From assembly GCF_020037015.1 (NCBI RefSeq), contig NZ_JAIQDE010000004.1:124001-188000 (forward strand): a DNA stretch of 64,000 bases, given 5' to 3'. The DNA is from Corallococcus sp. AS-1-6 (GTDB taxonomy: Bacteria > Myxococcota > Myxococcia > Myxococcales > Myxococcaceae). This document shows positions 2,703-25,397 of the stretch, piece after piece. The notes beneath the pieces were generated by a model. It was given only the letters and a program-made list of their open reading frames with translations, was not told the origin of the DNA and did not search any database. The stretch's first letter is position 1; every line of letters begins with the position of its first letter. The position numbers and the translations under genes were made by a program.

Positions 2703-5594
2703 GTGGCATTGAAAGTCGGAGACCTCTACGTCGCCGTCACCGCCTCCATCGGCGAGGCGGTGACGTCGCTGGCCAAGCTCGCCAAGAAGGTGGAGGACAC
2801 GGCGAAGAAGGTGAAGGAGGCGGCCGAGCCCATCGGCAATATCGGCGCGGTGGTGGCCGCCGGCATCGGCGGGGCCGTGGTGGTGGCCGCGCAGTCCAAC
2901 CAGCGCCTGGCCGCGGAGGTGCAGCACATCCAGGAGGTGCTCTACACCTTTGCGGCGGAGGTGGGGGACCTCTTCCTTCCGCTCGCTCGACGCGTTGGTG
3001 ACTTCCTGTCCAACCTCGTCGCGCACTTCCAGCGCATGGACCCGCGCGTGAAGCAGGCCGCAGCCAGCTTCGCGGCGTGGGCGGCGATGGGGGCCCTCGG
3101 CGTGGGCGTGGTGGGCAAGCTGGCCGCCAGCGTCGAGGGCCTGGCCAAGGGCTTCGGCATCGTCCTTCAGGGCGTGAAGGCCACGCTGCCTGTCATCGGC
3201 AAGCTGGGCCCGGTATTGAACGGCGTCGGCCCGGCAGCGACGAAGGCGTGGCAGGCGCTCCAGGCGATGAAGACGGTGGACGTGGGCGCGACCATGTCCA
3301 AGCTGTGGATGGCGCTCAAGGGAATGGCGCCCACGATGGAGGGCATGAAGGCGGGCCTCGGCGGGCTGGGCAAGGCCATGGTGGACTTCGCGAAGTCCAC
3401 GCCCTCAATGCTCTCCAGCGTCGGGAAGATGCTGATGAGCTTCGGCGCCGCCGCCATCCCCATCCTCGCGGTGGCTGCTGCAATCACAGCCATCGTCCTC
3501 CTGGCCGGCGTCCTCTACAAGAACTGGGGCGACATCAAGCTCATTGCCAGCGAAGCATGGGGGGCGATGAGCGAATCCATATCTGAGATGATGGGCGGAC
3601 TGGGAGAGCTCGCAGACAACCTCGCTGGCTTCTTCGTCGAGGCCTTCGACGGCTTCGGGAACTTCGTCAAGAGCCTCGCGGAACGCGCCCTCAGTTTCGT
3701 GGCCTTCCTGGTGCGCGGCAGCGCGAAGCTCGTCAAGCCGCTCGTGCAGGCCGCGCGCATGAAGGAGACGGAGAAGGCACTCACCGTGCTGGAGGGGACC
3801 ACAGGGGAGAGCCTCGCAGCGGGCATCGCCAAGGCGCTTGAGGGTGGCGCCACCTCGATGGCGGCGATGACGCAGCAGTTGAAGGCGGCGAAGGATGAAC
3901 TGGGCAAGAGCGTGGTGGCCACCGTGCAGGACGCCGCGACGGCGGTGGGCAAGGGCGTCAGCGTCGCCAAGGATGTCGCAGGGGTCGGTCTCAGCGATGC
4001 GATGAAGGGCGTCAAGATGATGCTCGCGGACATCTCCAGCGCCACCGGCATGGACGAAATGAAGGGTCGGCTGGAGCAGCTCATGTCGTGGATGAACGGC
4101 AAGAGCGAAGCGCGCATCCGCCAACCGGGGGACCTGAATGGGGACCTCCGCCAGAAGAGCTACGACCAGCTTCAGGCGTACGAAAACGAGGCGGCGAAGC
4201 GCGAGGCGGATCGCGCTGCGGCGGCCGACGAGGAGAACGCGGCGACGTCGCTGGAGGCGCTGGCAAACGAGGCGGACCGGGCGGCGGAGGAATTGGAGGG
4301 GAACCGCGACGCATCGCTGGAGGCCCGCGAGGAGTATGCTGCCTCAGTGCATGCAGAGATGGAGGCCGCTCATGAGGCCAATCTCTCCATCTGGCAGGAG
4401 ACCCAACGGTTTGCTGACGAGGCGAAGGCCGCGATGGATGCGGCCCGGGCCGACCTCATCAGCGGATTCCTGGGTCGGATGGGCGAACTTGGCGGACTCA
4501 TCGACGCCGCGAAGCAGGGATTCAGCGCTGGCGGTTGGTGGGGGGCGCTGCTTGCGACCATTGGCGAACTCGTCATGGGGTCCGACCAGATGGCGGAGGC
4601 CATGGAGGTGCTCAACGGCGTCATCGGGATGCTGAAGGACCTGTTCGGCGCGGCGGCTACCGGGCTCGACACCATCATGGGCGGCGTCGGCTACCTCGTG
4701 TCCGTAATCGTTGAGGTCGTGCAGCCGTCGATGGAGGCGATGGGGGAGGCCATGGAAAGCATCGCGCCCATCATCGTCCTGGTGGGTATGGTGCTGAAGA
4801 TGCTCGCCCCCGCCCTCGATGCCATCGGCAAGGCCACCGCGTGGCTGCTCGACAACGTCCTGAAGGGCCTGTTCCAGGTGCTGCGCTACGTGGCCATCGT
4901 CATCCTCTACGTCATCAAGGGCCTGGGCAGCGCGTGGAACGGCATCGTCTCCGCCATCCAGTGGGTGTTCCGCAAGCTGGGCGACATCAGCATCCTGGGC
5001 GCGCACCCGCTCGGCTTCCTCAAGGGCTGGGCCAACTCGATGGAGGGAGCGAAGGTGGACATCGAGTCGCTCGCGCGAAGCATCCAGGAACTCGAGGGCC
5101 TGACGTGGGACGCGGCCATGGCCAAGGCCCGGGAGACGGCGGAGGTGTTGAAGAACCGGGACGCGCTGGAGGACGTCAACGAGGCGCTCTCCAACGTGCC
5201 CGACCTCTGGAAGGTGGCCCTCCGTCGCTTCGAGGCGCAGGACGCGCAGGACGGGCCGAACACCACGCCCGGCACGCAGCCCGCGCCCACGTCGGGCGCG
5301 CCCTCGACTCCGGCGCCACCCACCCCCGAAGTGCTGCCTCCCATCAGCCGCGGAGGTGGGGGGCTGCTCGGCATGGGCGGCACGTTGCAGGAGTTGCTCG
5401 ACCTCATCCTGGGCGGCTCCAACGCCACTGGAGCCGCCACCGCCTCGGCGATGCCGCCCGTCCAGTACAACATCACCGGCTTCGACCTCTCGGACGCGAT
5501 GGCGCAGGCCCGTCAGGACTACGAGAACCGGCAGCGGAAGGCAGGCGTCCGTCTCTTCGGCACGAGCGCTGCCGTCGGTCCGCGCTACGCATAG
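2703..5594 (+). CDS. Tail tape measure protein
   Basis: A 963-residue protein starting with GTG 2703 after a CTCCTGGAG leader. It is the longest phage gene in view, as usual for tape measures, whose length sets tail length. It has an N-terminal amphipathic Ala/Lys-rich helix region (residues 1-60), several hydrophobic segments (for example AAAIPILAVAAAITAIVLLA and the stretches around residues 660-760 of the VIVEVVQPSMEAMGEAM type), long coiled-coil-prone segments rich in Ala and Glu at about 480-570, and a C-terminal low-complexity Thr/Pro linker. It follows the G/GT chaperones and precedes tail tip genes. I see no peptidoglycan hydrolase motif. Confidence 0.85.
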   Translation: MALKVGDLYVAVTASIGEAVTSLAKLAKKVEDTAKKVKEAAEPIGNIGAVVAAGIGGAVVVAAQSNQRLAAEVQHIQEVLYTFAAEVGDLFLPLARRVGDFLSNLVAHFQRMDPRVKQAAASFAAWAAMGALGVGVVGKLAASVEGLAKGFGIVLQGVKATLPVIGKLGPVLNGVGPAATKAWQALQAMKTVDVGATMSKLWMALKGMAPTMEGMKAGLGGLGKAMVDFAKSTPSMLSSVGKMLMSFGAAAIPILAVAAAITAIVLLAGVLYKNWGDIKLIASEAWGAMSESISEMMGGLGELADNLAGFFVEAFDGFGNFVKSLAERALSFVAFLVRGSAKLVKPLVQAARMKETEKALTVLEGTTGESLAAGIAKALEGGATSMAAMTQQLKAAKDELGKSVVATVQDAATAVGKGVSVAKDVAGVGLSDAMKGVKMMLADISSATGMDEMKGRLEQLMSWMNGKSEARIRQPGDLNGDLRQKSYDQLQAYENEAAKREADRAAAADEENAATSLEALANEADRAAEELEGNRDASLEAREEYAASVHAEMEAAHEANLSIWQETQRFADEAKAAMDAARADLISGFLGRMGELGGLIDAAKQGFSAGGWWGALLATIGELVMGSDQMAEAMEVLNGVIGMLKDLFGAAATGLDTIMGGVGYLVSVIVEVVQPSMEAMGEAMESIAPIIVLVGMVLKMLAPALDAIGKATAWLLDNVLKGLFQVLRYVAIVILYVIKGLGSAWNGIVSAIQWVFRKLGDISILGAHPLGFLKGWANSMEGAKVDIESLARSIQELEGLTWDAAMAKARETAEVLKNRDALEDVNEALSNVPDLWKVALRRFEAQDAQDGPNTTPGTQPAPTSGAPSTPAPPTPEVLPPISRGGGGLLGMGGTLQELLDLILGGSNATGAATASAMPPVQYNITGFDLSDAMAQARQDYENRQRKAGVRLFGTSAAVGPRYA

Positions 5595-5621: not shown

Positions 5622-6446
5622 ATGGCCTATCTCACCCTCAGCGGCATCGAGGTGCGGTGCTCGGCAGCGAAGGGGCTCGCCCAGAAGCCCACGCTGCGGG
5701 GCCCGCGCGTGCGGACCTTCAGTGGATGGGCCCAGAGCGGCACCCGGTCGCGCGAATTCGTCTGGTCCGGCGGCACCCCCCCGGTGCCGCTCGTGGAAGC
5801 GCAGGCGCTGCGCCGCCTCATTGACGGCGACGGGCATAGTTGGGACTTCGCCTCCGCGACGTCCAACGCCTTCACGTCCAGCAAGGGCGCGACGGCCAAC
5901 CTCACCGGGGCGCCCCAGGCCGGCACGGCCTTCACCGGGCGCTGGGGGTTCGGTGCCATGCAGATGGCGCCGGGCGACCAGGCCGAGTGGTCGGTCGGAG
6001 CGCGCCTGGAAAGCACCGTGGGCTTCTGGTTTCGCGCCGACGGTAGCGGCTCCTGGACGCACGTCGTGGCGCGCTTCCAGCCGGACGTCCTCTACGTCAA
6101 CGGCAGCGAACTGGGCATCGTGGATGACATGGAGGGCGAGACAGGGCTCTTCGTCTCGCTCACCGAGGGCGTGCTGGGCGTGAATGCTGTGGCCAACGTC
6201 ACGGTCAGCGACCTCGTCTACCTGCCCTACACGGTGCCGGAGTCCTGGGTATCGCAGTGGGCGGCGGCGACTGCGCCCTTCGGCCCGCTGCCGTACCACG
6301 CAGCGGACGGGGAGGGCATCCCGGGCCCGTTCCGCGTGCTGGGCCAGGCGCTCGACGCGCAGGCCGTGGAGTACGACGAGGGGGGCGTAAGGGTGCAGGG
6401 CCAGTACATGGACTTCGAATTGTGGCAACAGCCGGAGGCTGCCTGA
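5622..6446 (+). CDS. Putative distal tail protein
   Basis: A 274-residue protein with ATG 5622, 27 bases after the tape measure stop. It is beta-rich with many aromatic strands (SGTRSREFVWSGG, GSWTHVVARFQPDVLYVNG). The central part looks like a jelly-roll or LamG-like sheet. The gene lies between the tape measure and the tail-tip protein, where siphoviruses place the distal tail (Dit) protein that forms the hub for adsorption devices. The family is not recognised directly; the call rests on position and fold impression. Its TGA overlaps the next ATG (TGATG). Confidence 0.5.
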   Translation: MAYLTLSGIEVRCSAAKGLAQKPTLRGPRVRTFSGWAQSGTRSREFVWSGGTPPVPLVEAQALRRLIDGDGHSWDFASATSNAFTSSKGATANLTGAPQAGTAFTGRWGFGAMQMAPGDQAEWSVGARLESTVGFWFRADGSGSWTHVVARFQPDVLYVNGSELGIVDDMEGETGLFVSLTEGVLGVNAVANVTVSDLVYLPYTVPESWVSQWAAATAPFGPLPYHAADGEGIPGPFRVLGQALDAQAVEYDEGGVRVQGQYMDFELWQQPEAA

Positions 6447-8845
6447 TGCGTTCTCTCTCCAGTAGTTCCTCAGCGCTGGTCGCATGCCGCGCTGGCTTCG
6501 CGTCGCATGTTCGTGTCCTGGTGCAGCGCGACGCCACGTGGGTGGACCTCTCGACGTTGCTGGGTGGGGACTACCTGCTCGGCGCGTCCTGGTCAGACAG
6601 CATTGAGGCACCGGTCTCAACTGCCAGCGTGTCCGTCGTGCGGAACGGCCCCGGCGGGACGCGGCTGTCCCTGGCGCCGCTGGTGGTGGCGAGCTTCTTC
6701 AACACGAGCGAGGGGGCCTACGTGCCCCTCATCCGCGCGGGCGCGTACTTCCGCATTGAGACCGCAGCGGCTCCGCTCGGGACGCCTCGCGCGTCGGTGC
6801 CGGAGTTTTCGTGGACCGAGGCCTGGCGCGGTCGCATCGACGAGGTGGACCCGGGGCCGGAGGAGATGACCTTCAGCGGCCGGGACCTCGGCGGCGTGCT
6901 GCAGGACACGCACATCGAGACGGACCGGAACTATGGCAGCGCGGTCGGCGTCCCGGTGCAGTCCGTCATCCAGTCCATCCTCAACGACAATGGCATGGGC
7001 AGCTACGGGCTCTACACCCCGGTGAACCCAAGCAGCGTGCGCGGGCCGTACACCCAGAAGCAGGAGCCCATCCTGGACGCGCTCCGCTTCCTCGCTGAGC
7101 AGATTGGCTGGGATGTCCGCATGCGCTGGCGGACGGACGCGGGCGCCTTCGCACTCACCCTCTGGAGCCCGGACCGGCTGACGAGCACTCCCGTCGCCAG
7201 CTACGGGCCGGACTACTATCTGGACGCGTCGCCCGTGCGGCAGAGCCTGGAGCACGTCCGGAACGTCGTGCAGGTGGTGTACTCCGACAAGGCGGACGTG
7301 GACGCCACCGGCGCGCGGAAGCGCAAGACGGTGGAGGTCAGCAACTCCGCCAGCATCGCCCTCTACGGGCGCCGGTGGATGCGGGTGGCGGAGGCGGCGT
7401 CCTCGCTCATCGATACCGCGGCGGAGGCCTCGCGCCTGGCGAACGCGGCGCTCGCGGACCTCTCCGAGTCGGCGGTGAGCATGACGCTGACGCTCCCCGG
7501 GATTCACTGGTACTTGGAGGCGTCGGACCTCATCGAGGTCCAGCCCGACGGCGTGCGGTTCGACTCTGCGCAGACCCTGGCCATCCAGTCCGTCGACTTC
7601 GAGGCGGCGTCCAGCGGCGAGGCGCGCACGAAGCTTGAGCTCCGCGGGAGGCCGTCCACGAGCCTGGCCGTCTGGGCTTCAAAGGAGTCCCGTCCCGGCG
7701 TCGCGCCGAGCGTCCCCTTCACGGGGCCGTCTGCCCCGGCAGGGCTCGCGGTCACGAACACCGTCAACGGCTTCAGTCTCACATGGACGCCGGCGACCAC
7801 CGGGCCCGCGTGGGACTCGTACGAGCTTCACATCAGCAGCTCTCCCGCTTTCACCCCCTCGCAGGCTACGTACCGCGAGAACAGCCGAACCACGAGCTTC
7901 AGCGTGTCGAACCTGGTGGCGGGCCGCTCCTACTACGCGCGCGTCATCCCCCGCGATGTGAAGGGCAACGCAGGTCCTGCCAGCGCGGAGGTGACGCTCG
8001 CGCCCAGGTACGTCGCGCCGTCGATGCTCCTGCCGACCGTTACCTACGCGGCGCTGCCGCTCAACGCGGACTTCGAGGCGCTGAGCGACCCGCTCCAGCC
8101 CCCGGATGGATGGGGCGTCTCCCCGGGCACCTGGAACGTGGATGCCTTTGATGAAGCCACCACCGTATTCAGCGGCGTTCGCGCGGTGCGCCTCGCGTCC
8201 ACGCTGGTGGCCACGAAGCTGGGCAGCCAGCGCTTCGCCGTCCGCCCGGGTGACCTGCTCTTCCCCAGCGTGTTGGTGTGCAACGACCCGGTGCCGTTCA
8301 ACTTCAACTACCAGTCCGTGCTGTGGCTGGCGTGGCTGAGTGACACCTTCAACCTCATCGACATCACCGAGGTGGACAGGCGGGCGCAGTCCACCGTTTG
8401 GCAGGAGATGGGGAGCGGCAACAGCGCCGTCGCTCCCTTTGGCGCGCGCTATTGCCAGCTCTACGTCGGGAAGGCGAATGCCCTCGCTTACACCCTCTAC
8501 GTGGACTCGGCGAGGGTGGTGATTCAGTCTCGTCCTCAGGACTACCAGAGCGTGACGCTGACCTCCGGCTGGGTGGCCACGGGCTCACCGCGGAGCAACC
8601 CGGCGTACTACAAGGACAACGTCGGCGACGTCGTCCTCGCAGGCTCAATCAAGAGCGGCTCCCTCGGCAGTGCCGCCTTCACTCTGCCTGCTGGCTACCG
8701 CCCACCCTTCGAACTGCAACTGGCCGTGGTGAGCAACACCGGATTCGGAAGGCTTCGCATTGCCGCTGATGGGAGCGTCACCCCCATGACCGGCAGCACG
8801 ACGGAGTTCAGCCTCGACGGCGTGAGGTTCCGCGCGGCGACGTGA
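6446..8845 (+). CDS. Tail tip/fibre protein with fibronectin type III domain
   Basis: A 799-residue protein coupled to the upstream gene by a TGATG overlap. The first 420 residues resemble a baseplate hub: beta segments such as WRGRIDEVDPGPEEMTFSGR followed by a helix-containing region that resembles gp27/tail-associated lysozyme scaffolds. A fibronectin III domain follows at about 430-520 (SAPAGLAVTNTVNGFSLTW through NLVAGRSYYARVIPRDVKGN). The last 270 residues are beta-rich with Gly and Ser, as in receptor-binding tips. It ends the rightward late operon and faces a leftward gene 5 bases away. Its likely job is host recognition; the receptor is unknown. Confidence 0.65.
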   Translation: MRSLSSSSSALVACRAGFASHVRVLVQRDATWVDLSTLLGGDYLLGASWSDSIEAPVSTASVSVVRNGPGGTRLSLAPLVVASFFNTSEGAYVPLIRAGAYFRIETAAAPLGTPRASVPEFSWTEAWRGRIDEVDPGPEEMTFSGRDLGGVLQDTHIETDRNYGSAVGVPVQSVIQSILNDNGMGSYGLYTPVNPSSVRGPYTQKQEPILDALRFLAEQIGWDVRMRWRTDAGAFALTLWSPDRLTSTPVASYGPDYYLDASPVRQSLEHVRNVVQVVYSDKADVDATGARKRKTVEVSNSASIALYGRRWMRVAEAASSLIDTAAEASRLANAALADLSESAVSMTLTLPGIHWYLEASDLIEVQPDGVRFDSAQTLAIQSVDFEAASSGEARTKLELRGRPSTSLAVWASKESRPGVAPSVPFTGPSAPAGLAVTNTVNGFSLTWTPATTGPAWDSYELHISSSPAFTPSQATYRENSRTTSFSVSNLVAGRSYYARVIPRDVKGNAGPASAEVTLAPRYVAPSMLLPTVTYAALPLNADFEALSDPLQPPDGWGVSPGTWNVDAFDEATTVFSGVRAVRLASTLVATKLGSQRFAVRPGDLLFPSVLVCNDPVPFNFNYQSVLWLAWLSDTFNLIDITEVDRRAQSTVWQEMGSGNSAVAPFGARYCQLYVGKANALAYTLYVDSARVVIQSRPQDYQSVTLTSGWVATGSPRSNPAYYKDNVGDVVLAGSIKSGSLGSAAFTLPAGYRPPFELQLAVVSNTGFGRLRIAADGSVTPMTGSTTEFSLDGVRFRAAT

Positions 8846-10603: not shown

Positions 10604-10958
10604 CAGGAACTCCTGCCCGTGCGCACGCGCGCAGGGGCGCTATACTGGCGTCCCCAGCGGTGCTTCCCCGGCGCTCCTGGCCTGTGCGGGCTCGACCGTC
10701 TTCCCCGGTCGGGCCCGTCGTCTTTCTGCCTACCGCCCTGCTCACCCGCACCCGCCGCCCGACCCGGCATCAACAGCATCCGCACAGGGCGTCGTCCAGC
10801 GACTGCCCATGTTTGGACAGAAGGGGCGGCCACGCTCCGGCACCCCCGACGTCCGTCGGTTGGATAGGTATATATCTATTGACTGCGCGTAGATATATAC
10901 CTATACCCGCCATCGCCGGCAGCGGCGTGCCGCCGCGTCATACCCCAGGGGGACGAGG
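10604..10958. other. Divergent intergenic region of 355 bp
   Basis: No convincing coding frame is visible between the leftward sigma-factor gene and the rightward small gene. The right part contains the AT-rich promoter/operator at 10864-10907. The left part contains TATACT at 10641-10646 without a good -35 partner. The rest is GC-rich and unremarkable. Confidence 0.6.
10864..10907 (+). promoter_or_regulatory. AT-rich sigma-70-type promoter with a 15-bp inverted-repeat operator
   Basis: A -35 box TTGACT (10879-10884) and a -10 box TATACC (10902-10907) are separated by exactly 17 bases. The -35 lies in the 11-base gap between perfect 15-bp inverted arms, ATAGGTATATATCTA (10864-10878) and TAGATATATACCTAT (10890-10904). 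The right arm fills the spacer between the boxes, where a bound repressor would block RNA polymerase. The arms stand out against the high-GC surroundings. It faces the two rightward genes at 10959 and 11271 and is a candidate prophage repressor operator. Confidence 0.65.
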
Positions 10959-11198
10959 GTGCCAGACGATGTGAAGAAATCGGATTCGGGCCTGCGGCAG
11001 AGGGCGCACCGGGGCAGCGTGGTGTTCAAGCAGTTGCTCCCGCACACCGCACGCTCGCGAAGCGCCCAGGTATTCCTGGTGAAGCGCCTCAAGGAACACC
11101 CGGAAGAGGGGGCAGAGGCCTCCGAGGCGGGGGTCGCGAGGATGGGGCTCGAGGAGGCTGCTCTCGCGCGCGGATGGGTCCCTCCAGACGACACCTGA
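10959..11198 (+). CDS. Small basic phage protein of unknown function
   Basis: A 79-residue protein starting with GTG 10959 after a CAGGGGGACGAGG leader, 51 bases downstream of the AT-rich promoter. It is helix-rich and charged, with a basic middle (HTARSRSAQVFLVKRLKEH) and an acidic Ala-rich tail ending GWVPPDDT. No family is recognised. It is the first gene after a regulated-looking promoter, so an early regulatory role is possible but not shown. Confidence 0.5.
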   Translation: MPDDVKKSDSGLRQRAHRGSVVFKQLLPHTARSRSAQVFLVKRLKEHPEEGAEASEAGVARMGLEEAALARGWVPPDDT

Positions 11199-11270: not shown

Positions 11271-12101
11271 ATGAATACGCGACACGAGCAGCCGTTGATG
11301 GAGCAGCACCAGGGCGGGGTAGGGCCGTACCGGTTCGGCCGGCGGCTGCGGGTGGGCGAAGGGCTGGGGCGCGTCTACGAGGCGCGTAACGAGGAGACGG
11401 GCAACCCGGCCTACGTGGTGACGCCCACGGGGGCAAGGGTGGACCTAGCGCCGGATGTGGCGCTCCAGTACCTCGTGACGACCTCCGTCCGCCCGGCCTT
11501 CATCGCCTGCGAGCTCGTCTCCGTCCCTTCTGGTGCCGACGCCTCCGCGGTGGAGGCGGAGATGTTGGACACGAGCGAGGACGTGATGGACATGCTGATG
11601 GCGGCGGGAGCGACAAAACAGCGGCTGGTCCACCTGCTGACGGGCCGCGCCCCGGTGCCGCGCCGAGCGCCGCCCTCCCCGGTGTCGGCGCCGCGCGCGA
11701 TCCGCCCGGCCCGTGCCCTTCGCCTCGTGACGGCCCTGTCCCTGGCGGCTGCCGGCGTCCTTCTCGCCGTCCAGGTGAGCGCTCCGACGCCGGAGCCCGA
11801 GCCTTTCGACGAGATGGCGCTACCGGAGTTGCCGCGCGAGCAGGCCGTGTTCACCGCCGGCTTCGCGTCTGGCGCAGGGAACCGGCTCCCGGAGCGCTAC
11901 CGCGTGCCGGACGCGCCGTTCAAGGGCCAGAAGGAGGCGCCCTGCTCCGGGCAGGAAGTCGCCATCAACGGTGGATGCTGGCTGAAGCTCGACGCTCAGG
12001 TGCCCTGCCCGAAGCAGGCCGGGGAGTGGAAGGGCGGATGCTACATCCCCGTGAGCGGCTCGAAGCCGGACAACGTGAGCGGCCCCGGCGGCCTGTACTG
12101 A
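11271..12101 (+). CDS. Truncated Ser/Thr-kinase-like membrane protein (no catalytic core)
   Basis: A 276-residue protein. Residues 18-50 look like the start of a myxobacterial Ser/Thr kinase domain: GPYRFGRRLRVGEGLGRVYE resembles the Gly-rich ATP loop. The usual lysine strand is replaced by NPAYVVTPTG, and no HRD or DFG motif follows. Residues 149-168 form one membrane segment ([20 protein letters not shown]). The outside part has four Cys (225, 236, 246, 257) in a PCSGQEVAINGGCW and CYIP context, which I know from the C-terminal tails of myxobacterial transmembrane kinases. It may interfere with, or act as a partner of, host kinases. It overlaps the 3' end of the opposing gene by 61 bases. 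Confidence 0.65.
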   Translation: MNTRHEQPLMEQHQGGVGPYRFGRRLRVGEGLGRVYEARNEETGNPAYVVTPTGARVDLAPDVALQYLVTTSVRPAFIACELVSVPSGADASAVEAEMLDTSEDVMDMLMAAGATKQRLVHLLTGRAPVPRRAPPSPVSAPRAIRPARALRLVTALSLAAAGVLLAVQVSAPTPEPEPFDEMALPELPREQAVFTAGFASGAGNRLPERYRVPDAPFKGQKEAPCSGQEVAINGGCWLKLDAQVPCPKQAGEWKGGCYIPVSGSKPDNVSGPGGLY

Positions 12102-12617: not shown

Positions 12618-13394
12618 TCAGTGGGCCAGGGACGCGGCCAACTCGGCGTAGCGCTCGCCCAGCCAGACGACACCGGCAGGTGTCACGCGCGTCTGGGAGA
12701 AGTCCTTCTCCACGCTGCCGGCCGCTGTGTGCAGGGTGACGAGGTTGGGCGGGAAGGCGAACAGCCCCCGCGCGACGTACTCGGCGTAGGGCTCCAGCTT
12801 CTTGTCGCGCCGCCGGAAGAGGATGCCGTCCTCCACCAGCCGCGCGTTGAGCGTCAGCGGTGGGATGCACAGGCGCTTCGCGGCGTCGCGCAGCGAGAGC
12901 AGCGAGTCCGCCTTCGCGTACCGGTCGACGAAGTCCACCGCGGGCTGCTGGGCGAGTAGTTGCGCCTGCTGGGACTCCACCTTCTCGGCCAGGTCCGCCG
13001 CGAGGCGCAGCGCCTCCGGGAGTGACTTCGGCACCGCGAAGGCAGGGGCGGGCGGCTGGGGCGCATTGCCCGTGGCCACCGCGATGAACGTCTGGATGAC
13101 GGCGACGTGGAAGGGCGGGGACACCCAGGCCGCGTAGGCGATGACGAGTTCGTGGCAGGCGAACGTCCCGCCGTTGCGACCGGTCACGACCTCCACCGGC
13201 GAACTCCTCACTTCTGAGGAGTTTCCCAGCTCGGCCGCCAGCGCCCTCGTCGAGCCCAGGCGAAGGAAGTTGGACGGCTGGTGTCGTGCCTCGCCGCCCG
13301 CCGCGAGGTGCAGGTCATTGAGGCTGAACCTGCCGTGGGCGTCCTGCGTGATGACGACTCCGGCGACCTGGATGCTGCTGGGCTGACAGGACAT
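12618..13394 (-). CDS. Phage antirepressor (KilA-N plus KilAC-like domains)
   Basis: A 258-residue protein. ATG 13394 is preferred because GGAGGAAG lies at 13397-13404; the longer GTG start at 13415 would put that site inside the gene. The N-terminal 100 residues have the KilA-N pattern (GRFSLNDLHLAAGGE, PSNFLRL, a GRNGGTFACHELVIAYAAWV strand). After a linker the C-terminal part (about 145-250) fits an antirepressor/KilAC domain (SLRDAAKRLCIPPLTLNARL, then the VTPAGVVWLGERYAELAASL helix). Such proteins bind DNA or repressor and favour lytic growth. It sits in the leftward early operon. Confidence 0.8.
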   Translation of the reverse strand: MSCQPSSIQVAGVVITQDAHGRFSLNDLHLAAGGEARHQPSNFLRLGSTRALAAELGNSSEVRSSPVEVVTGRNGGTFACHELVIAYAAWVSPPFHVAVIQTFIAVATGNAPQPPAPAFAVPKSLPEALRLAADLAEKVESQQAQLLAQQPAVDFVDRYAKADSLLSLRDAAKRLCIPPLTLNARLVEDGILFRRRDKKLEPYAEYVARGLFAFPPNLVTLHTAAGSVEKDFSQTRVTPAGVVWLGERYAELAASLAH

Positions 13395-13474
13395 GGACTT
13401 CCTCCGGTGGCGCACATGCGGGCGACCACCGCCGGGCGCCGCGGGGGTGGTGCGTGAAAGGGGTGGGAAAGGGG

Positions 13475-13903: not shown

Positions 13904-14531
13904 GGACGGCACCGCCTTCCGACTTCCACGTCTCAAGGGCCGGGCGACGAAGGGCGGCGAGCAGGATGGCGTGGTCGCGCACTTCCGCCCAGAGGGTGCC
14001 GGTGGGCCACTCGTACTTGACCGTCCCCTTGCAGCCCGGGACGCGCAGCCACACCGTGCCCGTGCCGGAGGTGACGACCGTGCTCGCAACCTCCGCGCTT
14101 GGCAGCGTCTGACGCACCTCCGCGAGTACCGCTTCCCGGGCGAGCCGCCGCTCGGTGCGCTCACGCGCCTCAGCCTCCCGGCACGCCTCCGAGCACCAGA
14201 CGTCTTGCCCGCGCGTCACCGGGGGCGCCCACTCCATCTCGTGGCTGGCCTCCTCATCGGCGTTGTCCGCGCAGCGCCAGCAGCCTTCCTCTTCCACGCG
14301 GTGGGCGCAGTGGCTGCATTCGAGCCACCAGTTGATGGCGAGCAGCGCCTGGGCGGGCACCGGCCCTGGGGCATGCGCGTCCAGGCGGGGCTCGCGCCGG
14401 GCCTCCGTGTCGCGCGCGTCCAGCCCCTCCTTCCGAGCGCCACGCACCCGCGCACGTGCCTCGGAGCGCTCGAACACCACCTCGTGGTGATCGTCGTCCA
14501 GTTTCACCACCCACGCCACAAGGTCAGCCAC
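13896..14531 (-). CDS. Phage protein with a zinc-finger-like region
   Basis: A protein of about 211 residues. GTG 14531 is chosen because GAGG lies just upstream and the protein then begins MADLVAWVVKLDDDHHEVVF; an in-frame ATG at 14543 is also possible. A Cys cluster (WWLECSHCAHRVEEEGCWRC, then WCSEACREAEARE) suggests one or two zinc sites. The C-terminal part has mixed strands (TGTVWLRVPGCKGTVKYEW). It overlaps the neighbours on both sides, showing tight coupling within the early operon. No function is known. Confidence 0.55.
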   Translation of the reverse strand: MADLVAWVVKLDDDHHEVVFERSEARARVRGARKEGLDARDTEARREPRLDAHAPGPVPAQALLAINWWLECSHCAHRVEEEGCWRCADNADEEASHEMEWAPPVTRGQDVWCSEACREAEARERTERRLAREAVLAEVRQTLPSAEVASTVVTSGTGTVWLRVPGCKGTVKYEWPTGTLWAEVRDHAILLAALRRPALETWKSEGGAVHG

Positions 14532-17097
14532 GGGGCACCTCATCCCCGGGCAGCGGCAGGTCGCGGATGGCGAGCGCCTCCAACTCCAGCTTCAGCGCCA
14601 TCTGGTGGCTGAGGGAGTACGTCTCCGGCGTAGCACGCCCCGTCGTCGCGCTCTCCTCGCTGGCCGAAGACTCCAGCCTCAGCGCCGCCCGCTCGCGCAT
14701 GTCCTCCGCACCGAGGCGCGCGGCGTCCTGCACGGCCTTCACCATCGCCGACCCGGCCAGGTCCTGCAGGTGGGCCACGCCCTGCCACACGTCGACGAGG
14801 TTGTTGTGGACGAGGGCGATGAGTTCCTTGACGGGCTCCGGCAGGTCGTGCCGGTCCAGCATGTCCGACAGCGCCGCTTTGCACGCCTGAGCCATCAGCA
14901 CGACGTCCTGGTAACTGAGGGCGTCCGGAGGCTTGCGCATGCCGATGGAGCCCTGGACGCGCGAGGCCATCCGTCGCGTGAGGAGCTTCACCGCCTCTCG
15001 CCCCTCGTCGCCGTCGGGCACGGGCAACTCCTGGAAGACGGCGCGGAGGACGGCCACGGCCGCGCCCTGCTCCGGCGTGGTGACGCGGAGCGCGCTCCAC
15101 ACGCGCACCACGGCGCGGCGCACGGACTCCGGCACGCTCGGGCCGCCGCACGCGTCGCACCGCGCGCGGCACCACTCGCACTGGCCCTCGCCCGCGCAGG
15201 TGCAGCGTCCGGAGGGGTGCAGCATCGCGTCCACCTCGGAGGCCATGAGGCGCCCCATGGGCGTCAGTTCGTGGCCCAACTTCGCGAGGCTGGAGTCGAT
15301 GCGCTGGGGCAGGGTGGGGCGGCCCTCCTGCGCGCGGCGGAGCACCCGGGACACGTCCGCCGGCACCCAGCCCGCGGGCTTGATGACCTTCCCGTCGGCG
15401 CGCCTCACCGGGCGCCCGTCCGGCCCCAGCTTGCGCATGTTCGCCGGGTGGATCTCCTCGCTCACCGCGGCGAGCAGCGGCAGCCCGAACTGCACCGCGC
15501 GGCCCGCCACCACCACCTGGCAGTCCCCGAGCTCGTGGAGCATGGCGGCGAGGTCCGGCCCCGGGCTGTCGGGGTCCACCTCCACCACGAGGTCCGCCAT
15601 CCTCAGCACGGCCGAGCCCACGCGCACGCGCAGTCCCGAGGCGCCCAAGAACTCCAGCGACTCCTCCAGGATGAGGCCGCCGCCGAGAACGCGCTCCTCC
15701 AAGGTGCCAACGTCCGGCACGTGGCGCACCGGCAGACCCATGGACTCGTGGAACTCCGTCACCCGGGCCACGTACGGGTCGGCCTCCGGCGGGCGCTCCA
15801 GCAGCGGCGGCACCGTCGGGCGCACGTCGAGCGCGGACAGCATCCGGTTTGCGGCCGGTTTGCAGTTGCCCTGCACGGTGGAGGGCTCGCCACAAACCGG
15901 CACGTCGCCGTGGAGCACCCAGCGCACCGCCTCGCGCAGCGCACCGGGGTGGACGGACGCGCCGTTGGCGTGGGCCCGGTAGCGCGACACGACGGCAGCA
16001 TTCGAGGCCGCGCGCTCAACGGCAGCATGCCAGCGCCGGGCCGCCAACATGTAAGCCGCGCTTTCAGGTTCGGCAGTCGGAGTTGAACCATCCGAAACGG
16101 CCGGAGAGTTCGCCGCTTCCTCGCCGCGACCGCACACGCCGGAGCATCCCTCGTCGTCCGGGTTGATGGACTCAGCTTCGCAGCGCTGGCACGCGAGCGA
16201 ACAGAACCGCTGTCCGGCGGGCGCCGCATGGTCGCCGTGCTCGCACGTGTTCTCCCACTCCTCCGGCGTCGTCTCGGCGGGCAGGGCGGAGAGGGCGTTG
16301 CGCAGGTCCTCCAACGCCACGTCGCGCTCAGCCATGGCCTCGGCTTCCTCGCCAGCCAAACTGGTCAGGTAGTCGTCGTGGGCCTCCAGCACCCTCTTCA
16401 CCTGCGCGCGGAGGGCGTCGCGCTCGGACTCGGCGCGCTCCTTCTCCCTCTTCGCATCGTTGTGGAGCGTCACCCACGCTTTCGCGTCGGCGCTGTGCAG
16501 CGCCACTGCCTCGTCCCGATCGGCCGTGAGCGTGGCCACCTGGGCCCGGAGCGTGGGCACCTGGGCGGCGAGGGAGGCCACGTGCTCCGCCAGCGCGCGC
16601 ACACTGTCCAGGCTCCACGTGGAGTCCTTGCCACGGAAGCGCTCCCCGATGGCCGGGACCTCCGCTTCGGGGAACGCGTCCAGCAGCCGCTCCTTGAGCA
16701 CGCCCAGCGTCGAGTCCACCTGGCCCTCCAGCGCGTCCACCCGCCCATGGAGGGCGGACAGTTCGCGCATGCGCTTCTGCGCGGCTTCGAGGCACCCCCA
16801 GGCGTCCGGCGTCACCTCCGGGTCCAGCACCTTGGCGATCTCCGCCACCTGCTGGTGCGTCTGCGTCCGCTGCTCCTCCGCCAGAGTCGCGCGGTTGGTG
16901 AGCGTCCGCACTTGCTCCTCCAGCCCCGGCACCTGGGCGCCCATCAGGGCGGCGGCCTTGAGGCGGGCGAGGGCTTCGCGGTCGAGGTCCTGCAACTCCT
17001 CCACGTAGCCGCTGTTGTTGATGGTGCCTTCCAGCCCGGCCACATCGGTCTCAACATCGTCGGTCGTGTACTTCGTGTTGTCCGTGCACGTCGTCAT
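14524..17097 (-). CDS. Large fusion protein: coiled coil, zinc clusters and MazG-like pyrophosphohydrolase
   Basis: An 857-residue protein starting at ATG 17097. Residues 30-280 are a long Ala/Glu/Arg coiled coil with repeated ALRAQV and TLTADRD blocks. Residues 285-322 hold a Cys cluster (CEHGDH, CSLACQRC, CSGVCG). Residues 442-587 match the all-alpha MazG/PRA-PH pyrophosphohydrolase of phages: VTEFHESMGLPVRH, metal-site residues E478-E479 in LILEESLEFL, D525 in HELGDCQ, then NMRKLGPDGRPV and a terminal GWVPADVSRVL. A second Cys cluster lies at 632-650 (CTCAGEGQCEWCRARCDAC), followed by a helical tail. It may hydrolyse nucleotides. The N-terminal coiled coil resembles the protein at 21493-22323. 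Confidence 0.65.
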   Translation of the reverse strand: MTTCTDNTKYTTDDVETDVAGLEGTINNSGYVEELQDLDREALARLKAAALMGAQVPGLEEQVRTLTNRATLAEEQRTQTHQQVAEIAKVLDPEVTPDAWGCLEAAQKRMRELSALHGRVDALEGQVDSTLGVLKERLLDAFPEAEVPAIGERFRGKDSTWSLDSVRALAEHVASLAAQVPTLRAQVATLTADRDEAVALHSADAKAWVTLHNDAKREKERAESERDALRAQVKRVLEAHDDYLTSLAGEEAEAMAERDVALEDLRNALSALPAETTPEEWENTCEHGDHAAPAGQRFCSLACQRCEAESINPDDEGCSGVCGRGEEAANSPAVSDGSTPTAEPESAAYMLAARRWHAAVERAASNAAVVSRYRAHANGASVHPGALREAVRWVLHGDVPVCGEPSTVQGNCKPAANRMLSALDVRPTVPPLLERPPEADPYVARVTEFHESMGLPVRHVPDVGTLEERVLGGGLILEESLEFLGASGLRVRVGSAVLRMADLVVEVDPDSPGPDLAAMLHELGDCQVVVAGRAVQFGLPLLAAVSEEIHPANMRKLGPDGRPVRRADGKVIKPAGWVPADVSRVLRRAQEGRPTLPQRIDSSLAKLGHELTPMGRLMASEVDAMLHPSGRCTCAGEGQCEWCRARCDACGGPSVPESVRRAVVRVWSALRVTTPEQGAAVAVLRAVFQELPVPDGDEGREAVKLLTRRMASRVQGSIGMRKPPDALSYQDVVLMAQACKAALSDMLDRHDLPEPVKELIALVHNNLVDVWQGVAHLQDLAGSAMVKAVQDAARLGAEDMRERAALRLESSASEESATTGRATPETYSLSHQMALKLELEALAIRDLPLPGDEVPRG

Positions 17098-19049: not shown

Positions 19050-19254
19050 GTGTTCTACTCGTCGCCGGAGCCGTAGCCGTCGCCGGAGCCGGAGCCGTCG
19101 CCGGAGCCGGAGCCGTCGCCGGAGCCGGAGCCGTCGCCGGAGCCGTCGCCGGAGCCGTCGCCGGAGCCGTAGCCGTCGCCGTAGCCGGAGCCGTCGCCGT
19201 AGCCGTCGCCGTAGCCGTAGCCGTAGCCGTAGCCGGAGCCGTCGCCGGAGCCGC
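19050..19254. repeat. Hexamer tandem repeat (GCCGTC/GCCGGA/GCCGTA)
   Basis: About 200 bp consist almost only of hexamers with the plus-strand pattern GCCGGA, GCCGTC and GCCGTA, often arranged as 12- or 18-base higher-order units. On the minus strand it encodes Ser/Tyr/Asp-Gly repeats of the overlapping small gene. Slippage should make its length variable between strains. Confidence 0.85.
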
Positions 19255-19267
19255 GCGTCCCGCTCAC
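19055..19267 (-). CDS. Gly-rich repeat peptide (GSGDG/GYGDG)
   Basis: A 70-residue protein starting with GTG 19267, which overlaps the upstream stop (GTGA), so translation is probably coupled to the preceding gene. After MSGTR almost every second residue is Gly, alternating with Ser, Tyr and Asp (GSGYGYGYGYGDGYGDGSG). It ends GSGDE. It has no signal peptide and no recognised domain; Asp-Gly repeats could bind metal or form a disordered linker. It may also be an expanded repeat rather than a functional protein. Confidence 0.55.
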   Translation of the reverse strand: MSGTRGSGDGSGYGYGYGYGDGYGDGSGYGDGYGSGDGSGDGSGDGSGSGDGSGSGDGSGSGDGYGSGDE

Positions 19268-21160: not shown

Positions 21161-21496
21161 ATGACCCTGACCCCGAAGCCGCCAACCCGTAAGAGGAAGT
21201 CGCCCACGTATGCCTTCCGGCCCCCGGACGACCAGGACGCCTGGCTCTCCGCGAAGCTGGATGCGGGCTGGAGCCAGACGGCCATCCTCACGGAGGTGTT
21301 GGCGCTGCACCTGCGCCTGGACTCCGCCCTCGACAACCACGCCGATGCCATTGAGGCGTACCGCCAGCGCGAGGGGCTCATGCCGCGCTATGAGGGCGAC
21401 ACGGCGGGCCTCCACGAGGCGCTGGCCCGACTGATGGTGCGCGGGCTGGAAGCGGAGGGGCTCCTCAAGCCCGCGAAGAAGGGCGGCCGGGGATGA
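21161..21496 (+). CDS. Putative ribbon-helix-helix-type DNA-binding protein
   Basis: A 111-residue protein. ATG 21161 is used, but an in-frame ATG at 21089, directly after the palindrome, would add 24 residues. A basic N-terminus (TPKPPTRKRKSPTYAFRPPD) is followed by a strand and two short helices (AWLSAKLDAGWSQTAILTEV), the pattern of ribbon-helix-helix regulators. The C-terminal half is helical (TAGLHEALARLMVRGLEAEG). It heads a three-gene rightward operon; its stop overlaps the next start (ATGA). It may bind the nearby GTTTGC palindromes, which is inference. Confidence 0.5.
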   Translation: MTLTPKPPTRKRKSPTYAFRPPDDQDAWLSAKLDAGWSQTAILTEVLALHLRLDSALDNHADAIEAYRQREGLMPRYEGDTAGLHEALARLMVRGLEAEGLLKPAKKGGRG

Positions 21497-22323
21497 GCGC
21501 GTGCAAGCCAGAGGAGGTGGAGCAGGAGGCGAAGCGGATTGAGGAGACGCTGACGCTGCTTCCTGGGGCGTATTGTCAGCACCAGGCCCTTGCCCAACGG
21601 CGGCTCTATCGCCTCCGCGACGCCGCGCTGGAGGGCGCGAAGGTGCCGGGGCTGGTGGCAGACAACGCAGCGCTGCTGCATGCAGCGCGTCGGGTCGAGC
21701 CTCACCTGCCGCACTTGGACGCGGGCGTCATCCGGTACAGCGAGCACGCCCAGGCGTCCGGCGCACTGCGGGCGGCGCTGGCGGTCGAGCACCCCGGCGC
21801 GGCCCTGCTCGCTGAGCACGAGGCGCAGGTGTCCGCCCTCCAGGCCCAGGTGGACATGATGGTGGGCGCCATCGCCGCCGGGCTGGATTACACCCCGACC
21901 CCCTCCATGGCAGCGGAGCGCGTGCGCGGCATCATCGCGGACGGGGATGCGGCCATGCAGCGCGAGCCGGACCTGCTCGCGAAGGTGGCCACGCTCACGG
22001 CCGAGCGGGACGGCGCGCGCTCACGCGAGGCCGACCTGGAGCTGGCGCTGAACCACGTGGCTGGGGAGCTCGGATTCAACGCGCCCCAGGGCGTGCTCGG
22101 CACCGCGAAGGACATCGTGGACGCCACGAAGCGCATGGTCAGCGAGCGCGACGCGTTCGAGGCGGAGCGCGACGCCCTCCGCGCGCAGGTTCTCGCCGCC
22201 GAGGGCGCGGCCTACGACGCGGTGTTCACCATCTACGGTGACAGTCAGCGGGCCCAGCAGGTCGCCAACGCAGTCCACGCCGCCCTCTCCGCCCCGCCTG
22301 CCGAGACGAAGGAAACTCCGTGA
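21493..22323 (+). CDS. Coiled-coil phage protein, paralogous to the N-terminus of the MazG fusion
   Basis: A 276-residue protein whose ATG overlaps the upstream TGA. It is predicted to be almost fully helical with long coiled-coil stretches (LLAEHEAQVSALQAQVDMMV, VATLTAERDGARSREADLEL, ERDAFEAERDALRAQVLAAE). A block near residue 40 (LYRLRDAALEGAKVPGLVAD) and the C-terminal NAVHAALSAPPAET resemble segments of the 857-residue protein at 14524-17097, so the two are probably related by duplication. The function is unknown; a structural or nucleic-acid role is possible. Confidence 0.55.
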   Translation: MSACKPEEVEQEAKRIEETLTLLPGAYCQHQALAQRRLYRLRDAALEGAKVPGLVADNAALLHAARRVEPHLPHLDAGVIRYSEHAQASGALRAALAVEHPGAALLAEHEAQVSALQAQVDMMVGAIAAGLDYTPTPSMAAERVRGIIADGDAAMQREPDLLAKVATLTAERDGARSREADLELALNHVAGELGFNAPQGVLGTAKDIVDATKRMVSERDAFEAERDALRAQVLAAEGAAYDAVFTIYGDSQRAQQVANAVHAALSAPPAETKETP

Positions 22324-23066: not shown

Positions 23067-23749
23067 CAGTCTCGTAGAACCAGCGCACCTTGCATTCCGT
23101 AGTTCGCCGTACTCGCTGGGGCTTCGGCCCAGGTAAGCAGCGGGACTCCACCACCTCCGGTTCGACCGGAACCCATTAGAGCCGCAGCCCGCGAGGCATA
23201 CCCGTGCGACGGGGTGCAGCCCGGGAGGCGGCTCCGGCACCGCGCCCGGCGTCTTACCTCGTCGGGCGAGGGTGCCGTCTTTCGGGGTGGCCCATGCAGC
23301 GCACGAAGACGAGCCGCGAAGCAGTCGATGCAGGCACCGCGTGCGCGCATGGGGCCACCGATGTTTCAGCAATCCCTCGCACCGGCCGCCGAGTGGTACG
23401 GGCTAGCGCTCGCGGTGTGGCCGCGCGCCGCGTCGAGTGTCGCGCAATCCAAGACAGGTTCGATGGTCGCGCGCTCCCGCTGACTTCCGAAGATGGAAGG
23501 CCGAGCAACTCCGGCCGTGGTTGCTCGGAATCCGACGTGCGCCCGGTGGCGCAGCGAGGATGCAAGCAAAAAGTGCAGGCAATCACTTGCAAGCAAAATC
23601 GTCGTGCGATACTGATGTTTCAAGCAGCCTCCGGGGGTGAGTATCCGAGGCTGTGCTCCCCAACGACGTCATCCGCAGTGCGCAGCGCGTCGTATTTCCT
23701 TTTGGCATCGATACTGCACATGCATTCAGACGCCCGACAGGAGGGAGCG
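23067..23749. other. Intergenic region upstream of the excisionase-like gene
   Basis: These 683 bases carry no convincing protein; frames crossing them have unlike codon use and poor composition. Two direct copies of TGCAAGCAAAA lie at 23561-23571 and 23588-23598, 27 bases apart, with an inverted AAGTG/CACTT pair (23571-23575, 23584-23588) between them. An integrase arm-site or excisionase-binding function is possible. The DNA becomes less GC-rich toward the right. Confidence 0.5.
23561..23598. repeat. Direct repeat TGCAAGCAAAA (two copies)
   Basis: Identical 11-bp copies at 23561-23571 and 23588-23598 lie upstream of the excisionase-like gene. Short AT-rich direct repeats near int are typical of arm-type sites bound by tyrosine integrases or of excisionase sites. 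No further full copy was seen near the att region. Confidence 0.5.
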
Positions 23750-24081
23750 GTGAGCGAGAACATCGAGGGCGGTGTTGAACTGGTGGCGCTGGTGCGGCGC
23801 GAAGTGGAGCGCGCACTCAAGGCGCTCCGTGAGACGCCGGCGGCGTCGAGGCCGGAACTGCTGACGCAGGCGGATGCGGCTGCGCTCCTCGGCGTCTCCG
23901 TATCCACCATCCGGAACTGGCTGCGCGACCGGAAGCTGACGAAGTACGGCAGCGGCAAGGTGGTGCGCGTCTCACGCGCGGAGCTGCTCGCGCTGAAGGC
24001 GTCGTCCGCGGAGCCGGACGCCAAGGCTCCGGCGGCGGACGCCGACGCGTGGGCCGCGGCTCGCATGCGGAGGGGCGGGTA

Positions 24082-24082
<1 letters not shown>
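23750..24082 (+). CDS. Excisionase-like HTH protein (Mx8 Uoi-like position)
   Basis: A 110-residue protein starting with GTG 23750 behind AGGAGGGAG. Residues 38-95 contain a helix-turn-helix of the excisionase/MerR-like class (LLTQADAAALLGVSVSTIRN, then WLRDRKLTKYGSGKVVRVSR). Its stop overlaps the integrase ATG (TAATG), so both are co-translated. In Mx8 a small gene upstream of int (uoi) has this place. It probably directs excision by bending DNA near att and may also control the int promoter. Confidence 0.75.

Positions 24083-25397
<1,315 letters not shown>

Follow-up and report, generated by a model that had tools for sequence, protein, structure and literature searches.

The gene described here lies at positions 11271-12101 on the plus strand of a 64,000-nucleotide stretch of Corallococcus sp. 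AS-1-6 DNA, which we call the window. It begins with ATG, has a coding-like GC3 of 0.89, and specifies a predicted membrane protein of 276 amino acids with a kinase-like N-domain, a transmembrane segment and a tail carrying four cysteines. As a preliminary description of this sequence had claimed, the gene is phage borne. Within a prophage, genes for a tape measure protein (2703-5594) and a tail protein (6257-8845) lie upstream of it; a convergent antirepressor gene (12618-13415, minus strand) lies just downstream; and excisionase (within 23204-24082) and integrase (24049-25362) genes, which match PHROGs 66 and 1, are found farther on along the plus strand (23204-25362). The antirepressor is assigned from its matches to PHROG 129 (transcriptional regulator, E = 1.3e-36) and PHROG 63 (anti-repressor Ant, E = 8.7e-32).

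Judging from position and visual inspection, we assigned the Imm-like slot of this prophage to a gene at 21161-21496 (plus strand), for which a Pfam search gave no match. The gene under study lies about 9 kb from this Imm-like gene and does not adjoin it. The Imm-like gene is followed, with a 4-nucleotide overlap, by an unrelated, coiled-coil-like ORF that also has 276 codons (21161-22323 for the two together), and genes placed directly behind the repressor seem to be exchangeable. Elsewhere in the window, an 857-amino-acid protein (14524-17097) matches a nucleotide pyrophosphohydrolase at residues 442-591 (PHROG 671, E = 1.8e-22), and a low-complexity frame rich in glycine, aspartate, serine and tyrosine occupies 19055-19267 on the minus strand.

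The gene is the second of a two-gene unit behind a palindromic, promoter-like site. A perfect 15-nucleotide inverted repeat with an 11-nucleotide spacer (10864-10904), which has no counterpart elsewhere in the window, is a probable operator. Inside it begins a promoter-like sequence, TTGACT-N17-TATACC (10879-10907, plus strand); a scan with a stricter consensus did not report this site. The first gene of the unit (10971-11198, plus strand, GTG start) encodes 75 amino acids. Its order with the second gene is conserved, with 82% identity over 66 residues, at four collected loci (L006, L008, L036 and L041) that represent a single relative, also from Corallococcus (the member genes of L006 and L008 are identical and were counted once). 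At the matching position, L006 and L008 have a palindrome with different arms (AGAGATATCTCTA) around TTGACC. Because the pair adjoins the excisionase and integrase genes in L006 and the antirepressor gene in the window, it occupies different positions in different prophages. Judged by eye, the small protein is possibly a regulator of the ribbon-helix-helix (RHH) type; searches of Pfam, PHROG and PADLOC gave no match and lent the RHH assignment no support. Among seven Imm-like neighbors of related genes, one (L125) matches RHH_5, below threshold (E = 0.11).

Three parts can be distinguished in the 276-amino-acid protein, all encoded on the plus strand. The N-domain (residues 16-125; 11316-11645) contains a motif like that of a kinase N-lobe, G-x-V-Y-x-A-x(4)-T-G. 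The predicted transmembrane segment occupies residues 149-167 (11715-11771), where Kyte-Doolittle hydropathy is 2.09, and the sequence before it is richer in arginine and lysine than the sequence after it. The tail (residues 212-262; 11904-12056) is predicted to lie on the exported side. Its cysteines (C225, C236, C246 and C257) are invariant in an alignment of 20 tail-bearing proteins, and AlphaFold assigns a pLDDT of 83-94 to the tail blocks in residues 211-260. The tail motif, PxxGQ..PPC..GGCW..PC..E.KG.CY, occurs in this protein and in a set of kinases, and we name proteins with a transmembrane segment and this four-cysteine tail the GGCW four-Cys tail family.

For comparison across the family, we aligned 58 short members with 27 kinases, after dropping 17 of 75 non-kinase frames that were either shorter than 250 amino acids or excluded by name (L058, L078, L002, L070 and L003). 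Four cysteines are present in the tails of all 55 short members scored (the other three did not match the tail pattern, and by eye they also have four); hydropathy predicts a transmembrane segment in 46 of the 55, and the positive-inside rule is followed in 50. From these features, we infer that the N-domain is cytoplasmic and that the tail forms a disulphide-type knob in the periplasm. The membrane segment, the Cys-rich tail and the kinase-type ends without a catalytic core had all been noted in the preliminary description, and each is borne out. The ATP-loop-like start it reported is likewise present, as GPYRFGRRLRVGEGLGRVYEARNEETGNPA at residues 18-47, but the family keeps only the last glycine of the GxGxxG loop.

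The family is large. In a protein search at E <= 0.001, the 276-amino-acid protein matches 45 of 96 genomes of its bacterial family, spread over 7 of the 26 genera; in the genera labeled g3 and g6, each genome has 12 to 29 matches, many of them near full length, with open frames of about 250-330 amino acids. Members from the bacterial family and from phages, including Mx8 p2, Mx4 and Mx9, come to 59 when 66 sequences are reduced at <90% identity (L002, L058, L078, L050, kinases and shorter frames left out). The closest relatives have 60-66% identity and come from the genus of the window, one of them from Corallococcus carmarthensis. The records of phages Mx8, Mx9 and Mx4 match the protein best in their tails, and translation reveals full-length members in all three: Mx8 orf2 (p2), Mx9_p06 and Mx4_p71. 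In Mx4_p71 (L039, 2891-4189) and Mx9_p06 (L038, 1885-2901), the homologous domain begins M-A/G-A-R-N-G-V-G-P-Y, and the annotated starts are probably too far upstream. Mx8 also encodes p60 (AF396866, 34264-34593; L037, 4860-5189), annotated as a transmembrane segment and tail only. Since the N-domain is present in the counterparts from Mx4 and Mx9, its absence here is probably a loss that occurred in Mx8 at this locus, with p2 being retained. Metagenomic phage contigs (L049-L054 and L130-L138) encode tail-only proteins, mostly of about 120-160 amino acids and sometimes two or three per contig, which consist of a transmembrane segment and four-cysteine knob without the N-domain. The genome of the window itself (G000) has a second copy of prophage type on contig C1 at 189.5-191.5 kb (L004, L164), in the order Imm-like gene, member, excisionase, integrase, and a frame-broken copy at 204.5 kb (L002, L165).

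No library model describes this apparently unnamed family. The 276-amino-acid protein has no match in Pfam at E <= 10, in NCBIfam at E <= 1 or in PADLOC, and it matches PHROG 996, of unknown function, at E = 0.0033. Scattered matches that we attribute to chance were obtained with 20 members in NCBIfam (six families, one member each; best, NF038083 at E = 2.4e-4) and in Pfam (eight families, one member each; best E = 0.044), and with 39 N-domains in Pfam (seven families, one member each, kinases not among them; best E = 0.019). A profile of the tail searched against solved structures found no relative, its sole match (E = 0.49) being a 51-amino-acid ant toxin. A viral scan with A5 returned no relatives, and we found no account of the gene or its family in the open-access literature. 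The preliminary description had foreseen, as an outcome that would count against it, homologues forming a separate, known family without kinase relatives; the homologues are separate and have no good library match, yet their tail is common to kinases.

Many members are linked to phage immunity genes. In Mx8, imm (35-367) and p2 (364-1158) overlap by 4 nucleotides at the 3' end of imm, which the GenBank records describe as the "primary repressor" and as "necessary for superinfection immunity"; a review (PMC6070905) also underlies this account of imm. We scanned flanks of 0-2.5 kb upstream and 1.2-2.5 kb downstream, which are short for many loci. A co-directional Imm-like gene lies directly upstream of 12 of the 59 members (weakly so in L014) and a divergent one lies beside four, counts that lean upward by construction in that all seven Imm-like queries come from loci beside members. 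Eleven members sit between a co-directional Imm-like gene and the excisionase and integrase genes, both of which occur within 1.5 kb downstream of 23 members; an antirepressor gene occurs near four. Altogether, 29 members have some phage mark and 30 have none, nearly all of the latter from two many-copy genera. On a tree of the 59, the labels phage and chromosomal change only twice, whereas 500 shuffles gave 19.9 changes on average and never fewer than 13, and therefore the phage members look like standing lineages rather than repeated accidents. In this tree, genus and phage label are partly confounded, and L016 is labeled as phage by way of its copy L043, which lies beside an integrase gene; five phage-marked members from g3 and g6 also cluster together.

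Full-length kinases with the same tail, which the preliminary description proposed to look for, do exist. Among the loci collected, 27 of 102 distinct tail-bearing frames contain the HxDxK motif, and tail-bearing L067 and L158, used as controls, match Pkinase (PF00069) at E = 5e-22 and 3e-26. A search with the tail finds matches in 45 of the 96 genomes of the family, a set not identical to that of the whole-protein matches, and across the order the tail profile has matches in 54 of 145 genomes, belonging to 8 of 46 genera. Among the 150 matches listed, frames of at least 440 amino acids predominate in g7 (47/55), g8 (12/14) and g19 (6/6), and frames of 230-345 amino acids in g3 (33/39) and g6 (29/32); greater length by itself is no proof of a kinase. 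Compared by eye with the full kinases, three tail-kinase frames from g7 and g8 appear to have undergone large in-frame losses within the domain: in L058 (one locus with L163) the sequence passes from the hinge directly to the domain's end, in L156 it passes from beta-1 to beyond the domain, and L153 has two gaps and keeps HRDVKGDN. Since full-length tail-kinases exist and these three frames lack large parts of the domain, the family to which the 276-amino-acid protein belongs likely descends from tail-bearing kinases. (PADLOC matches of two tail-kinases to PD-T4-6 look like generic kinase matches.)

What is left of a kinase in the N-domain is limited. The last glycine of the GxGxxG loop is kept in 56 of the 58 short members, and it is the only glycine of the loop so kept. 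In a register that rests on the alignment of this loop, the position of the beta-3 lysine (VAIK) holds V, L, D, Q, E or A in 57 of 58 rows, with V in the 276-amino-acid protein. ATP binding by the N-domain would thus be unlikely, because the beta-3 lysine is absent and a single loop glycine is kept. The protein lacks the catalytic motifs HRD and DFG and also HxDxK; the count of zero HRD motifs in the 58 short members follows from the choice of a set without HxDxK, and a DFG-like triplet occurs in 11 of them when position in the protein is disregarded. The domain extends for only some 110 residues before the linker begins, leaving no C-lobe and thus no complete bilobal pseudokinase fold.

A Pkinase search at E <= 10 gave no match for the protein or for any of 39 N-domains. 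Aligned by hhalign, the N-domain scores best on the kinase Gly-loop, in register, with a score of 24.0 and a probability of 7.8%; the reversed control scores 16.3, and the maximum of 200 column shuffles is 22.4. The N-domain profile has eight matches among all PDB sequences, of which the first six fall on the Gly-loop of kinases, STK10 accounting for five of these (E = 0.25-0.3). Structure prediction had also been proposed in the preliminary description. AlphaFold builds an antiparallel set of five strands plus a helix, with a mean pLDDT of 59 over the full protein and 70 when the domain is modeled alone. By title, 47 of 50 and 48 of 50 Foldseek matches listed in two model searches are kinases, but the best E-values are 0.52 and 0.71. 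In VIA structural alignment (Z <= 5.0), polo-box, AMPK/MARK C-terminal and BamC folds rank level with or above kinase N-lobes; we did not accept these as true relatives, their Z of 4-5 being below the level that is meaningful for the tool, and the same reserve applies to the kinase N-lobes.

Homology to the kinase N-lobe is not significant in any single test. The N-domain might therefore be a small beta-domain unrelated to kinases, its Gly-loop likeness being due to chance and only the transmembrane segment and tail being common to kinases. The want of a significant sequence or fold match and the equal performance of other folds speak for this explanation, which we consider rather unlikely: with three methods, the top match is to beta1-beta3 of kinases, the overall architecture is common to kinases, and tail-kinases without a core exist. 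We conclude that the N-domain is likely of kinase origin, its match to the N-lobe being consistent with this origin and statistically weak, and that the gene product is likely a kinase-derived, non-catalytic phage membrane protein.

Patterns of substitution differ along the gene. The N-domain shares 83% identity with that of L036 and 87% with that of L007, whose frames are both open, with Ka/Ks values of 0.245 and 0.252 (simple pairwise count), and among the three sequences compared, it is under purifying selection. The linker and tail are only 41-49% identical to those of the two relatives; Ka/Ks is near neutral in the linker (0.91 and 0.68), indicates mild constraint in the tail (0.50 and 0.61), and is 0.56 for the whole gene. 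The tails of L036 and L007 are 83% identical to one another (Ka/Ks = 0.13), and over 59 residues the tail in the window shares 61% identity with the tail of Mx8 p60. This pattern fits a swap in which a conserved inner domain received a different outer part, although the outer part may instead have drifted faster. Given the extent of the family (45 of 96 genomes and 59 non-redundant members) and selection on the N-domain in the three sequences compared, the term "remnant" used in the preliminary description does not suit the gene.

Our preferred hypothesis, to which we assign a probability of roughly 0.4, is that the protein is expressed in the lysogen, is non-catalytic, and serves at the membrane in superinfection exclusion or a related lysogenic function, and that it carries a kinase-derived, N-lobe-like domain. 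Co-location with the repressor in Mx8 and other cases, the nature of a membrane protein, the selected inner domain and the changeable knob lead us to a membrane function in the lysogen, most simply exclusion. The protein is prophage encoded and predicted to reside in the membrane, as superinfection-exclusion proteins do. During dormancy of the phage, the protein would be expressed from a repressor-linked unit. It would cross the membrane by a single helix, with the kinase-derived domain facing the cytoplasm and a four-cysteine knob of disulphide type in the periplasm. The variable knob might contact an envelope component, the conserved N-domain might contact a cytoplasmic partner, and the protein would act at the membrane against competing phages. 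Against exclusion in the window are the distance of about 9 kb from the Imm-like gene, the near-neutral linker and the mild constraint on the tail. Moreover, exclusion cannot be the sole role of the family, because 30 of 59 members have no phage mark in their flanks.

A prophage-switch sensor or a toxin-type pair would leave traces similar to those of exclusion. As a sensor, the periplasmic knob would perceive an envelope signal, and the N-domain would control a neighboring repressor of Imm or RHH type, so tuning induction. Imm-like regulators of several types adjoin members in both orientations, and the gene in the window is accompanied by a small gene and a palindrome of its own. We nevertheless regard a sensor as unlikely: the type of regulator varies among phages, and the coupling may reflect co-expression alone, contact between the proteins being only hypothetical. 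Somewhat more doubtful is a toxin or abortive-infection pair, in which the small regulator would be an antitoxin-like repressor and the membrane protein, once released, would depolarize the membrane or stop growth. The two-gene order with a 4-nucleotide overlap in Mx8 and (with an assumed start) in L047, the fact that the pair is placed differently within the prophages of the window and L006, and the precedent of PdpSau, described in one report (PMC10127798) as a membrane-anchored prophage abortive-infection protein, are in keeping with such a pair. However, the partner in Mx8 is the main repressor of the phage, conservation of the N-domain suggests more than a pore, PADLOC gives no match, and the small gene has no RHH match.

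The preliminary description suggested that the protein may be a decoy that pairs with host kinases; in the form weighed here, it would pair with those that have the tail and block their signaling. The shared tail makes this conceivable, and its plausibility depends on the host. Our tail search found no tail-bearing kinase in the genome of the window, though very divergent tails could escape its first step, in which a limited number of candidates is scored. The three clear tail genes there (E <= 1.2e-16) are the gene under study, the second prophage copy and the broken copy, none of them kinases; a fourth match, to a 92-amino-acid frame at E = 0.54, was taken as chance. Tail-kinases occur in 3 of 16 genomes of the genus, where G026 alone combines one with a short member as judged by frame length. 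They are motif-confirmed in 9 of the 13 g19 genomes checked (27 in total). Having members close to Mx8 p2, g19 is probably Myxococcus-like. These frequencies mean that a decoy is not general: in the host at hand no partner for it was found, elsewhere it may apply, and overall we consider it improbable. Last, the missing catalytic motifs, the frame-broken copy at C1:204.5 kb in the same genome and the near-neutral linker might suggest a decaying pseudogene, but this is very hard to credit, since Ka/Ks in the N-domain is close to 0.25 and the frames of both relatives are open.

Returning to exclusion or a related lysogenic function, we offer a broader and distinctly speculative history, which as a whole we consider unlikely. 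Myxobacterial phages would have taken over a receptor kinase of their hosts and trimmed it to the ATP-lobe, helix and Cys knob, and the product would have become the repressor's standing partner, a receptor with interchangeable knobs that guards lysogeny. It may poison the parental kinase in Myxococcus hosts, and two other genera would then have expanded it on their chromosomes. The protein in the window may help the resident prophage hold its host. If the N-domain is indeed a kinase lobe, the family represents repeated natural truncation of a kinase into a non-catalytic membrane receptor. The work also places a testable gene beside the immunity repressor of Mx8, a classic transducing phage, and ties the large kinase-tail family found in social bacteria to the phages of these hosts.

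Among known proteins, the myxobacterial Ser/Thr kinases L067, L071 and L158 are like the 276-amino-acid protein in their transmembrane segment, tail motif (varied in L158) and position of the Gly-rich start, whereas L067 and L158 carry the Pkinase domain (PF00069) that it lacks. Mx8 p2/orf2 (AAC48897, AAK94337) shares its N-domain, transmembrane segment and four-cysteine tail at 34% identity; p2 overlaps imm, whereas the gene in the window adjoins an antirepressor gene. GenBank annotates orf2 only as unknown or p2, and notes p60 as similar to p2; the tail of p60 is like that of our protein, and as annotated p60 lacks the N-domain. Mx4_p71 and Mx9_p06 have the same architecture, with an antirepressor gene on the other strand 32 nucleotides and 1.3 kb downstream, respectively. 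P22 SieA and PdpSau, both of them prophage-encoded membrane proteins that act in exclusion, may be functional analogues.
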